Assembly (NCBI RefSeq): GCF_000165425.1
Contig: NW_001799632.1
Span: 124,001-188,000 of the forward strand
Length of the DNA: 64,000 nucleotides
Direction of reading: 5' to 3'
DNA from: Paramecium tetraurelia
Lineage: Eukaryota > Ciliophora > Oligohymenophorea > Peniculida > Parameciidae
Below the pieces are notes generated by a model. It did no database searches. It saw only the letters and a program-made list of their open reading frames with translations, and had not been told where the DNA came from. Below, piece by piece: positions 25,653-35,369 of the stretch. The stretch's first letter is position 1; the number at the start of each line of letters is the position of its first letter. Position numbers and translations under genes: made by a program.

Positions 25653-27447
25653 TCATTATGAAATATTCATTAATTCATTTATTGTACTATCAATTGTTCT
25701 TATTTGGAGAAGAAAAGATGCTGCTTTGGAAACTATGTTGATTTTGGGATCCAATTCTTTTCCAATCCCTTCTAAAATCATCATATTGGTCAATAATGTA
25801 GCAAAATGACCCTCTACAGCAAGTCCATTGGATCTTAAAATTTCGAGCATGCCTTTGAAAATTGACCCTAAATCCATCTTAGATAAGGGGGCATTACAAA
25901 CCTCTCCAAATAGATCTTCAATGTCTTTTAAGAACTTTTATTTCTTCTCTTCTTTCAACTAGGTGTTATATGATGCCAAACTCAACATCAATTGACCACA
26001 CTCCTTTGGCTGTCTTAATGCAACAAACATTATTATTTTTATGAAATTTATTCTATCATTTTGATTTAATATCGTAACCATACCTGGGTCAATAAATATC
26101 AAATCTAAATTTTTTTAATTTTAGTTGGTCTATCTCAAAAAGTTCCAAAATTGCTATTCATCAAATATTTTTTCTTTCTCCAATATTGAAACCTAAGAGT
26201 GATATCGTATATTACCTTTAATGGTTTCTTTAATATGAACTTTTCAAAGAGTGGTACAATCAATTCAGCAGCATACTCAACTAAGTCATAAAATCCCTCT
26301 TCTAATAAATTTTTGAAATTATCAAATTTTGAAGTATTGTTATCTTTAATCCTAACTAAAATATTTCCAGAATGAAGATCAGCGTGTATAAAATTATCAT
26401 ATATTAACATTTTATAAAACGCTTTAAGTCCTAAGTTAGCTGCCACTCTATGCTCTCTTGTTCTTTCCAATTTCATAAAGTTAGACAAGGACACTCCTTC
26501 TTCAAAGGTTTCGACTATTACACTTTTCGAGACATATTCTTTGAGTATTTTTGGAAATATGACATTTTTTGAATCTTTAAATTTTTACTCAAAAATCTGA
26601 AGATTCTTTGCTTCAAATGAAAGATCTGCCTAATTCATTAATGTAACGCTAAACTCTTAAAATGTTACTGGCATAGCTAATCTCCTAAAAATTTGTTGAG
26701 TTGAACTTAAAATATTTGATATCACATATAAAATTTTTAGATCTAATTCTAGCTTCTCTACTATTCTCGGATGTCTAACCTTCACTGCATATTTTACACC
26801 ATTTTTATAAGCTAAATGAATCTAACCTATTGATCCTGATGCTATTGGATTTGTATCGAAACTGTCGAAAACATCTTCAATCTTCTACTTAAATTCTTCT
26901 TCAAACTATTTTTTAGTATAGTAGTAGTTGTGAGGCGTCGCTGAATCTCTTAGCTTACTTAGCTCTGAAGTCACTTCATAACCAAACACATCTCCCCTGT
27001 GACTTGCCCATTATCCCAATTTCATCCATAATGGCCCAGCCTTATATATTAAGAACTTACTAATTCTAATGATTTAATTAAAAGCCTTAGCCAATGCTTA
27101 TACAACCATGATTTGAAAAGTAAGGCGAAAGGAAAAAATACAACAAGAGGAGTAAAAGTTAGGATCAATTGCAGAAATCTTAATTACAATTTTCCATAAT
27201 AAATCATCCTACTCCAAAACCCATTAACACTATGAACATGTCCCCTTAAATATTCTTATTGATAATCCTTAAATAGATCAATTTCAATTACTTATTTTAA
27301 TTCTAAGTTTTCGTACAGAGAAGCATATTAAGCTTTCTTAAATCTTTGATAACCTGCACTATAAAGACCAATACAAGTCATCCCTCCTACAAATATTGTC
27401 GCTCTTCGACTTAAACCAACATTACTCAACTTGATCAATTTTAACAT
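25653..27447 (-). CDS. ABC1/UbiB/ADCK atypical kinase
   Basis: A member of the UbiB family, which supports coenzyme Q biosynthesis in mitochondria. Hallmarks: KLGQ motif in LAGPLWMKLGQWASHRGD, the serine-bearing loop NPIASGSIGQIHLA in place of a P-loop, YAVKVRHP with the lysine, catalytic HADLHSGNILV and the metal-binding LIFIDPGMVT. The N-terminus has basic residues and hydrophobic helices (about residues 15-30 and 105-125), suggesting membrane association. The arrangement is closest to ADCK2. Introns of 20 nt (AAG acceptor, near 27045) and 23 nt (26193-26215) give 583 residues. Divergent from the Dicer-like gene. Target specificity is inferred from the family only. Confidence 0.93.
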
Positions 27448-27542
27448 GTATAATTTTAAATAATAATTTTAACTCAAAACACAAAATCGTTGTTAAATTT
27501 CCCACTGATAGTAGTTTTATTTTAGTCATTTCCAATTTCTTT

Positions 27543-29267
27543 ATGTAATAAATTCAAATCTTGATCATTCATACTGTAAAAGATATTCTCAATCTAATTT
27601 AAGGATATCTTTATTTTTATATTGTTTATATTAGATTAATTAAAAATAAATTCATAAGAAATCCTTGTTTCTTGTCAGTGATTCTAAAATTAAAAGCTAT
27701 ATCTCTCTAAATCAACAGAAAATATGAGTTTTCTAATAAATTACATGACATCAAAACTCTCTTAAAACCTTTTATAAATAATTAACTGTTATTAATAGTC
27801 AATTAAAAATTATTTTATCACATTATAACTAAGTCTCATAATCTATCATTCTAGAATCTAATCAGTGTCTAGCATAAAAAATTGACAAATATTCCGTTTT
27901 TCTTAGTATTTATCAAATTTTTCAACTTGATTTGAGTTTGGAAAGAAAACTTGATTATTATAAAACTTTGAAAACGTAATACTTATTAGATAGCATGTTT
28001 TAAGGTAGTTACAATTTATTTTTTTCTGAGATAAAATAATTTTATGACCGAAAAAAAGTGCGAACATACATATGGAATGGCTTAACTTAAGTTTATTCTA
28101 TAAATGCTAAAAATAATACATCTAAATTAATTTCTAATTAAAATCTGAAATAATGTATTAAAATTATATATGTTAATTATCTTAAATAAAGTGCAATGAT
28201 AGAAATTCTTTAACCTTTTATGATTTATTGAAATTATTATAAATTTAATTACAAATGTTCAACTAACTTCTAGAATTCAGAAATACAAAACTTCTAGTTT
28301 AAGCTTTTACAAATAAAATTCACGAAATTGAATACTTTTAGAAGACTGGACAACAATATTAGTATGGAAACAACGAAGACTTTTCAATAGCTGGATAATA
28401 ATTACTAGAATTCTATTTTTATGACTACATGTTGCTCTAAGGGTACTTAAAATTAATAATATTAAAGGTTTCCAAATCAATAGAGTCAATTTAAAAAACC
28501 AAGTGACATAATTTAATTAAGGTAGAGGTTAATTAATGATAAATACCTTTCAGAGATAGCAATTCTACTAAGTATTTAAAATCTATTAAATATTGGAAAC
28601 TAGAAATCATTAAAGTACATTCTATTTTAATATTTAGAAATAATCCAAAAGTACTATCAGATTGTGTTAAATCCATAATAGGGGCACATTACTATGATAA
28701 ACAAAACGATCTAGAGGCTCTTAGAGATATTATTCACCCAATCGTAGTATAATTGTTGAATAAGTATCTATAAAATGTATACATAGAGGAGAACAAATAA
28801 CCAGAACACAATGGAAATATAATCCAAAATCTTCCTTCTTAGAGTACCTTAATTCTTATAAAGGAGAATTAAACATCAATCCTAAACTAACGATAGAATG
28901 GAAAAAAGATGATTCCATTTTAAATTAAAATAAATCTTTATATTTAATTTCTTTAGAATTAAATAGCACTATGAAAGTACAAAAGGTAGGCATAAACAAA
29001 AGAGAAACTGAACAAAGTGTATACCTGGAGGCTTTACTTTAACTTAGAAACTATCATACAAGGAATTACTAAAAATAGAAGAAACTAAATTACAAAACGG
29101 AAATTTAAGAAAATCAGGGTGAATCTGAGTTGTCAACTTCTCTTGATTCAACCCTAAATAATCAAGATTTATCATATTATAGTTTTACAGAGAAGACTCT
29201 AGATAAATTATAATTAAACTTTGATTAATAATTAAATCTCATGCTAGAGTAGTTGGCAAATGAATGA
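27543..29267 (+). CDS. Dicer-like RNase III plus dsRBD protein
   Basis: A C-terminal RNase III fold is followed by a double-stranded RNA-binding domain. RNase III segments: KLLVQAFTNKIHEIEYF, AGQQLLEFYFYDYMLL, DIIQLRQRLINDKYLSEIA and NNPKVLSDCVKSIIGAHYYD. The dsRBD reads PKSSFLEYLNSYKGEL to VGINKRETEQSVYLEALLQL. Two catalytic positions differ from active enzymes: the glutamate of the D-x-x-E pair is lysine (DCVKS), and the E-F-L-G-D pair is spaced by one extra residue. No helicase is present and the first 280 residues are helical and unrecognised. Short Dicer-like proteins make scnRNA and iesRNA in Paramecium. A mitochondrial mL44-type ribosomal protein is an alternative. Seven introns are proposed; the first two and the start (27543 or 27724) are uncertain. 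Confidence 0.78.
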
Positions 29268-29615: not shown

Positions 29616-31656
29616 TCAATTTACTGTTTGAAATCGTGAAATTTCTAATTTTAATTAAATTTTTACATTTTTTTCAAATTATTCAAATACTTCAGAAGTC
29701 ACAAAATTAAATTTTCTAACCCTTTTTCCATCAATAATATCATATGCTTCATCTGGTTTTATAGGTTCATCAATGTCAACAATTTCTCCATCTTCATCCA
29801 CCATTTAAGTTGCTTTGCATTCTAATTGTCCTTTTTAAATTAATTCCAAAACCTTTAATCTTTTATTCATTTTTTTTAGTTTATTCAAGAAGAATTCCTT
29901 TCTAATCATATTATCAGACTTTCTAGTGGTTAATTATTCGAATGCCTTTTTAATATTTGTTTATTGATCTTAAACCAATTACTAATATTCAACTTCCAAA
30001 TTCTTAGCCTAAATCATAATTTTAATATCTTACATGTTAAGACTTGGATTCTTATAAATTTAAATTCTTGTAAAGTTGGAACTAAGCATAAGTTTCCATA
30101 GTTTAATAGAATTAATTATTTTTTTCGTATCTATCAGTAGCACTTCCACTCAATTTTTAAATTTCTAGCATATTTTCATCAGTGATTCCTATTTTGTCTA
30201 AATATTGTGTTAATTGTTATTCCAAGTTTAATCTTTCAGTCTCTTAATTAAATAATTTTAAATAACTCATATTTGATGCTACCTTCCCTTAACCTTTATT
30301 ATGAAAACTGCTAATTCTATAAGGTGATTGATTAGCCTTTATTATTGATTAACGGTTACTGAAATTGGTTTTAGTACTTTTTGTATATTTTGATTTTGCT
30401 TTTATTCTTTCTAATTATAATTGATATTTTGGCGAAACAGATGTGATTTATTTAATTTCATCTTTATTTTAAGTCTTTTATCTGAAATTTTACAAAATTT
30501 ATTATGCTTAATTTGCACTTTTTAACAGCCATGAAGCAGTAATAAATTATTCTTAAGCTGTGGTAGTCTACATTTGATTTTGATTCTCTTCAAATTCTAA
30601 ATCAATTTTAGGTTACTCATCTTAATTTAATTTTTAGCTAAGATTTTTAATTTATTAAGAGAGAAGTTCCTTGTCCATATTCATTTATGTTAATTCATAG
30701 AATCTCTAAAATCTGAAAATCCACTTTTGATTAAGTAATTCAAATAACCATCTTCTTTGTTCTTTCTTCCAAATTCTTTTATCAAACTCCTATAAACTAA
30801 TTCTATACAGTAAGGTATTATCTTATGAACATTTAGCAGAAAATTATCGTTTATTGAGTAAAAATAGGCCATCTTCTCCAAAGAACTCCCCCTGTAAAAG
30901 TTTTGTTAAGCAAAATTACTTTCTTTATGTATTTTACTTATATATCTCCATTTCTCCTCTACCTATAAAGTAGCAGAATTCTATTGATTCATCATTTTCT
31001 TGATAAATATATGAATTTTTTTAGACTATCGATTACTCCATATGATAACTAAAGTATTTAATTTCTACATCTGAAAATATAGAAAAAAAAGAAAGGGACT
31101 TTAGAAACTTTTATTTCTCATAAGTGTCATTAGATCTCTGATTTGAATTGATTTCGTTAAATATTTTAAAATCCAAGCAAGCAAATTCTGTTGGTCTTAT
31201 AACTCTCACATGACATTTCCGATTCTCAGACAACCCATAATCATTAAATGACATTCCAAATGTTAACTCTTGTGAAATTGATTTCGAACCATTATGTTGA
31301 TCCCCATCTTCATTGTCATCGTAATAAGTAACTACAACTCTACCGCTAAGTACTAAAAATACGGTTTTATGTGTATTTATTATTGTGTTTTAAGAAACTT
31401 ATTTGTAATATATGTATCTGCATATTTCCCTAACAAATTAATCACTGTATTTTGACTTTAATCTTTATATATAATTGTAAACATAGATGAATTCGTATAG
31501 AGATTGAATATCTTAATCATTTCTTGAGAATGGATCTTTTATTAACGAATCTTTGATTTAGCTGATATCATGTTAATAGGTTGTTTTATGCAGGAATTTG
31601 GCTATTGACATTATGTTGAGGGCATCTGAAAAAGCTGATGATGTACGCTTTTTCAT
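29616..31656 (-). CDS. tandem cyclic-nucleotide-binding-domain protein
   Basis: A 671-residue soluble protein with two cNMP-binding-like folds. The first (about residues 75-190) includes TVFLVLSGRVVVTYYDD and ELTFGMSFNDYGLSE. The second (about 205-320) includes FLKSLSFFSIFSDVEIKY, YFIGRGEMEIYK and the phosphate-binding-cassette-like QGEFFGEDGLFLLNKR. That cassette lacks the canonical R-x-A-S-V, so cyclic nucleotide binding is uncertain. The C-terminal 330 residues are charged and helical with no known domain. No membrane helices and no kinase domain are seen. One 25-nt intron near 30010-30035 restores the frame after LESKSQH-like sequence. The upstream ATG at 31656 was chosen because MKKRTSSAFSDALN is in frame. 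Start codons of this gene and IFT22 are 41 bp apart. Confidence 0.8.
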
Positions 31657-31697
31657 AAAATTATATATTTATATTTATCATTTTTTTAATAAATAAC
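31657..31697. promoter_or_regulatory. 41-bp bidirectional promoter region
   Basis: The interval between start codons of the cyclic-nucleotide-binding gene (minus) and IFT22 (plus). It is almost pure A/T, including a seven-T run. Both promoters must fit here or inside the coding regions. Confidence 0.45.
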
Positions 31698-32324
31698 ATG
31701 TTTAAAGGTTCTTCAATCAAAATTTTACTAATTGGACCACAATAATCAGGAAAATCAAGACTTGCAAATTATATAGCCGATAGAGAAGATATTTCATAAA
31801 ATGGATATAGACCTACAGCAGGAGTTAGAATTTTGGAATTTGAAAAAGAGGCACCTAAGAATCCTAAAAGACCTGGCTCAGAAAAAGTAATTGTCGAGCT
31901 TTGGGATATGAGTGGAGATAATAAGTTTATATTTTTAATTAAATCAGATATGACTCCTGTTGGCCTGCAGTAATGAAGGATGCTCAAGGAGTTATATGTG
32001 TATACAATGCAGAGAATCCTAAGCACGAATAAGAATTAGAATGGTGGGTGAATCAAATATCAAAGAAAGCTGGTATTCCTGCTGCTCAAAACGTTGTATT
32101 TGCACATCATTTGACAGGAAAGGCTATAAAGGGATAATCAAAATTGCGTATTATTTGAATTTCTAAATATTTCAGCAAAATCATTAAGTAGTTTAACAGT
32201 CCATGATACTTCCATTGAAGAGGGGAATCAGACAATCCACCCAGCTTTTGAAAAGTTTTTCAATTCTTTGATGTTGAGTATTTATGAAAAATAGGAGAAA
32301 GAAGAAAATAGATTAATGAATTGA
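31698..32324 (+). CDS. IFT22: IFT22/RABL5 small GTPase-like IFT-B subunit
   Basis: A Rab-like subunit of the intraflagellar transport B complex, needed for building cilia. The P-loop is IKILLIGPQQSGKSRLANYI (G-P-x-x-S-G-K-S). PTAGVRILEFEK matches the switch I region of RABL5, and VELWDMSGD the Walker B/switch II area. DSCWPAVMKDAQGVICVYNA and FAHHLTGK follow, again RABL5-like; the HH replaces the canonical NKxD. Introns of 23 nt (31925-31947) and 28 nt (near 32140-32170) both end in CAG rather than TAG and give 191 residues, the family's usual size. High confidence. Confidence 0.95.
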
Positions 32325-35295: not shown

Positions 35296-35296
35296 G

Positions 35297-35369
35297 CGCT
35301 AATGGAAGGGTTTGAACCTTCGACCTGTTGGTTAACAGCCAACCGCTCTGCCGACTGAGCTACATCAGC
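35297..35369 (-). tRNA. tRNA-Asn (anticodon GTT)
   Basis: A complete 73-nt cloverleaf without intron. Acceptor arms GCTGATG and CATTAGC pair with one G-U. The D arm is GCTC/GAGC. The anticodon arm is GTTGG-CTGTTAA-CCAAC, giving anticodon GTT and decoding AAC/AAT. The T arm is GAAGG-TTCAAAC-CCTTC. The discriminator base is G and CCA is not encoded. Internal A and B box sequences are intact. It is a normal nuclear tRNA, not a glutamine suppressor for TAA/TAG. Confidence 0.97.

Follow-up and report, generated by a model that had tools for sequence, protein, structure and literature searches.

RNase III proteins with dead active sites are known from mitoribosomes, where mL44 of the large subunit combines a dead RNase III domain with a dsRBD at a size similar to that of the protein described here. 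In bacterial RNase III (Rnc; TIGR02191), one RNase III domain is followed by one dsRBD-like domain, and we take E41, D45, D114 and E117 of the E. coli enzyme to be its metal ligands. These four residues are among the conserved acids given in the cited part of PMC8708148; in Table 1 of that source, rnc70 (E117K) and the replacement of E117 by A or Q abolish catalysis with dsRNA still bound, E41A, D45E, D45N and D114A show low dsRNA binding, and D45A binds. According to PMC12936278, the trypanosome editing complexes also contain RNase III proteins without catalytic residues. In these two settings, dead RNase III proteins serve as scaffolds or partners of active subunits. P. tetraurelia itself has eight named Dicers, Dcr1-3 and Dcl1-5, in the portion of PMC8059543 that lists them, which share the RNase III superfamily with the protein analysed below.

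The locus lies in a 64,000-nucleotide stretch of P. tetraurelia DNA (the window) on contig C213 of the 69-Mb genome, where a sequence-only reading had placed a Dicer-like gene with altered catalytic residues at 27543..29267. The plus strand of this interval holds RNase III-like pieces whose frames differ from piece to piece (code 6, with TAA and TAG translated as Gln). Gene pieces searched against the same genome revealed a family of at least nine loci, as the search scores only the best candidates: the window gene (C213) and its paralogues C227, C208, C170, C31, C91, C171, C183 and C85. In two further searches, with diverged members as queries, these nine loci were again the only ones retrieved. 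Modelling guided by these paralogues, which have the exon boundaries in common, yields a gene at 28255-29267 (+) with four exons and 313 amino acids:

27543..28254 (+): probably non-coding; unconserved in paralogue C227 except 28177-28248 (71%) beside the ATG
28255..28442 (+): exon 1, with the ATG and the beginning of the RNase III domain (residues 1-62 plus two bases), including E41, S44 and Q48; this 188-base exon is identical in length in seven of nine family models
28384..28386 (+): S44, replacing the metal ligand E. coli E41
28396..28398 (+): Q48 (TAA = Gln), replacing the metal ligand E. coli D45
28443..28467 (+): intron 1, 25 nt, GT..AG; splicing restores the frame, and the position is the same in seven of nine models
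28468..28614 (+): exon 2, central part of the RNase III domain; a 147-base exon in seven of nine models
28615..28637 (+): intron 2, 23 nt
28638..28763 (+): exon 3, which completes the RNase III domain and carries D120-C-V-K123; a 126-base exon in seven of nine models
28660..28662 (+): D120, the E. coli D114 equivalent, kept in the window gene
28669..28671 (+): K123, replacing the metal ligand E. coli E117; Lys in all nine members
28764..28786 (+): intron 3, 23 nt
28787..29267 (+): exon 4, with a linker, the dsRBD-like domain (about residues 160-240), a variable linker and the C-terminal tail
29265-29267 (+): TGA stop at the end of exon 4

The lengths 188, 147 and 126 thus recur together in seven of the nine loci, and the models of the other two, C183 and C85, have three exons. 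The proposed start at 27543 gives way to the family-wide ATG at 28255. The original interval starts 712 bases too early, because the similarity to C227, the closest paralogue, spans the whole gene (75.8% of nucleotides over an alignment of 1,017 positions) and, upstream of the ATG, exceeds what chance would give over only about 72 bases (28177-28248). A single frame in this upstream part, at 27749-28231 (+), gives a weak PF20860 (Dicers_N) match (E 0.01), which is unconserved in C227 and probably due to chance. Further upstream, an ABC1/ADCK atypical kinase gene at about 26100-27450 (-) is divergently transcribed (PF03109, 8e-48 on a hand-joined protein). On the other side lie a cyclic-nucleotide-binding protein gene at 29989-31677 (-) and a Ras-like small GTPase at 31698-32324 (+; the query mixed window and C227 letters), which resembles IFT22/RABL5 and whose stretch is conserved beside the C227 paralogue. 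The only tRNA reported by ARAGORN in the window is a tRNA-Asn(GTT) at 35296-35369 (-).

After intron removal, the RNase III-type domain exceeds the cut-offs of both PF14622 (E 1.7e-9) and PF00636 (E 2.8e-9), and each protein in the family models contains one such domain, in agreement with the sequence-only reading. The dsRBD proposed in that reading is also recovered: the dsRBD-like region falls inside a TIGR02191 (RNaseIII) match spanning residues 6-237 (E 5e-15), although its 55.6 bits are far below the equivalog cut-off of 166.25. A profile of eight of the nine family proteins finds bacterial RNase III structures first in the PDB (best 1.4e-9), with the match to 1o0w extending through the dsRBD part, and weak matches to Drosha and Dicer structures follow. 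In the alignment of this profile with bacterial RNase III, the catalytic columns face mostly non-acidic residues. The family has the architecture of RNase III fold plus dsRBD, with a divergent dsRBD half that is weaker than the RNase III half; Pfam dsrm matches only one of eight members, below the cut-off (E 0.04). A single-sequence fold of exon 4 alone shows the helix-strand-strand-strand-helix order of a dsRBD at low confidence (mean pLDDT 47), with structural matches too weak to be informative. Beyond this region, the family alignment inspected by eye shows a tail motif [YF]-x-F-[ST]-[DE] in six of the nine models, all six of which end in a short amphipathic-looking segment; the tail of C183 keeps only a similar end, and those of C170 and C85 do not allow the comparison. 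The Pfam scan showed neither a helicase nor a second RNase III domain.

The loss of catalytic residues inferred from the sequence is real, and its extent had been understated, as the protein lacks three of the four metal ligands. The reported D-x-x-K motif is borne out as D120-C-V-K123. The N-terminal E...D spacing, read earlier as one residue longer than usual, is canonical, and it is the acids themselves that are replaced, E41 by S44 and D45 by Q48. The sequence-only reading would have been refuted by four intact acids after exon correction; with corrected exons, three of the four are missing. None of the nine family members keeps E41, D45 or E117, and the window gene retains only the D114 equivalent. 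In the order window gene (W), C227, C208, C170, C31, C91, C171, C183 and C85, the E41 position reads S, S, T, I, V, V, V, I and I. The D45 position is Q in eight members and S in C183, the E117 position is K in all nine, and the D114 position is D in three, E in four and Q in two. The position of E. coli E38 (E41 in the window protein) is Glu throughout the nine. The window gene thus matches catalytic RNase III of the Rnc/Rnt1 type in its fold and dsRBD, but not in its metal ligands. The Lys at the E117 position is the replacement found in rnc70, from which the family differs in that E41 and D45 are also replaced. It is further distinct from bacterial Rnc, which it otherwise resembles along its whole length, in being eukaryotic and multigene and in its extra C-terminal tail.

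Despite these losses, the genes appear to be maintained. We estimated dN/dS by the Nei-Gojobori method with code 6 for seven pairs, obtaining 0.10 for the window gene and C227, 0.06 for C91 and C171, 0.19 for C31 and C170, and 0.12 for the window gene and C208; C183/C85, C227/C208 and C91/C31 are saturated, and the values are approximate, since dS exceeds 1 in every computable pair. Because dN/dS is about 0.1, the sequences indicate a family under purifying selection and not one in decay. Between the window gene and C227, dN is least in the RNase III domain (0.073), followed by the dsRBD (0.157) and the tail (0.296). Four pairs (window gene/C227, C31/C170, C91/C171 and C183/C85) lie in collinear blocks, in which more conserved stretches flank the genes on one side or on both and follow in matching order, the arrangement expected of whole-genome duplication. 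A tree of the nine proteins (first 250 residues; C85 is shorter) strongly supports C183 plus C85 against the rest and the group of C31, C170, C91 and C171, and the window gene, C227 and C208 are drawn as a polytomy. Contrary to the block evidence, the tree does not group C31 and C170 exclusively with each other (fork support 80/81). C170 (L034) aligns with its pair C31 except in the tail, a pattern that a frameshift within the final exon would leave. In C85 (L039) the last exon is unsettled: it meets an early TGA, which ends the model at 177 aa and would be explained by an extra short intron, as the sequence of this locus suggests, or by a damaged copy. A six-frame PF00636 scan of the genome lists none of the nine loci, apparently because introns break the domain up into two or three exons.

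The same PF00636 search gives six Dicer loci in the genome, each with two RNase III domains. Because eight Dicers are named and six were found, this count is incomplete or species-specific. With a motif script, the N-terminal catalytic motif (YERLEFLGD, for example) was seen intact at five of these six loci and its C-terminal counterpart at two; the script failed to pick up the others, including both motifs of C34, and thus serves as a partial control only. By comparison, the family has one dead domain. We also compared the family profile with the six two-domain loci, in frames and exon by exon, and obtained no significant match. We therefore reject a Dicer identity for the window gene, for which a Dicer-like protein had been proposed, on its single RNase III domain, its dead site and the lack of a significant profile match to these loci. 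At G000:C52:74281-74421, a region belonging neither to the family nor to the Dicers, the dsRBD end of TIGR02191 matches weakly (E 0.05).

We consider it probable, from the sequences and by analogy with the E. coli mutants, that these proteins are RNase III pseudoenzymes that hold dsRNA without cleaving it, as clamps or adaptors. A non-catalytic role had been raised before as one possibility, and it is now more strongly supported than stated, because the losses hold across a family of nine. The E. coli substitutions suggest that cleavage is absent and that dsRNA binding is kept. This binding is likely but not certain, because E41A, D45E, D45N and D114A bind poorly in Table 1 of PMC8708148, and losing several ligands together might also weaken the hold on RNA. 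The 313-residue protein comprises an RNase III-fold domain without a metal site, a dsRBD-like domain and a tail common to most paralogues. It would most likely grip double-stranded or hairpin RNA without cutting it and would probably dimerize through the RNase III fold, becoming a clamp, a shield or a docking adaptor for other proteins, with the tail perhaps as the docking point. We infer this dimerization and adaptor role, together with a cytosolic or nuclear location.

Another possibility, which we regard as unlikely, is that the proteins assist Dicer or Dicer-like enzymes as non-catalytic partners in the small-RNA pathways, either within heterodimers or by presenting dsRNA to them, in the manner of KREPB for KREN or of a TRBP-like dsRBD protein for Dicer. 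The dsRNA-binding architecture of the family, the six two-domain Dicer loci in the genome and a shared tail that hints at a protein partner are consistent with such a role. Dicers, however, pair their own two RNase III domains, and the sequence relation of the family to them is only at the superfamily level. There is a precedent in the trypanosome editing complexes, in which catalytic KREN proteins pair with RNase III proteins lacking catalytic residues (PMC12936278, in the part cited). The kinetoplastid KREPB proteins resemble the family in having RNase III motifs without catalytic residues, but bear a U1-like zinc finger with an RNase III-associated motif (same part of PMC12936278), whereas the Pfam matches of eight family members include no zinc-finger family and a dsRBD-like domain follows the RNase III domain in Paramecium. 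In addition, the RNAi components named in the cited portion of PMC8059543 include no such family.

A mitochondrial protein, either mL44 itself or a factor binding mitochondrial rRNA or mRNA, is a doubtful alternative. It would account for the dead RNase III fold with a dsRBD at a similar length, as in mL44, and PF22935 (mL44) weakly matches four of eight members (best 7.8e-5); the first 25 residues also contain more K+R than D+E in all nine. However, PF22935 reaches only 21.5 bits on the window gene against a cut-off of 27, and 19.8 and 21.3 bits on two other members; in each of these three it stays below the cut-off and below the generic RNase III models. The model is also unspecific, matching in seven of 14 control genomes, three of them above the cut-off and all prokaryotes. 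No mitoribosomal chain occurs among the 31 PDB sequences matched by the family to E 10 or among the 14 matched by a single member, whereas an 86-residue mL49 piece of this genome, used as a control, matches the Tetrahymena mitoribosome chain 6z1p_AL at 4.6e-20; that structure may lack mL44, a term that does not occur in the main text of PMC7326499. Nor is there an N-terminal extension, as the RNase III match begins about 6-8 residues after the start codon (profile, window gene), and at least nine diverged copies stand against two loci found for mL49. The mL44 alternative raised by the sequence-only reading thus finds no support, and the family is probably not mL44, although a mitochondrial role outside the ribosome, or one that Tetrahymena lacks, would be compatible with all of these sequence results.

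A divergent active ribonuclease is very improbable. It might use residues that are still present, for example E41 (at the position of E. coli E38), D42 and D120, as its ligands instead, the first being Glu in all nine members and D120 being kept in the window gene, but all nine have Lys at the E117 position and no acid at the E. coli E41 and D45 positions, and two have Gln at the D114 position. A decaying pseudogene of a Dicer or RNase III would also have lost its catalytic residues, but the chance of this is negligible given the open frame, the conserved exon structure, dN/dS of about 0.1 and identical losses in nine paralogues.

The pseudoenzyme reading removes a false Dicer and exposes a blind spot of the six-frame PF00636 scan. 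With at least nine genes under strong selection in an organism whose biology relies on dsRNA processing, the family would be a further case of dead RNase III proteins and would add a putative layer of dsRNA handling. More speculatively, and with low probability in our estimate, it may be an rnc70-like, lineage-expanded family that holds dsRNA uncut and competes with or assists Dicers; if so, it would gate which duplexes become the small RNAs that guide genome rearrangement or silencing.
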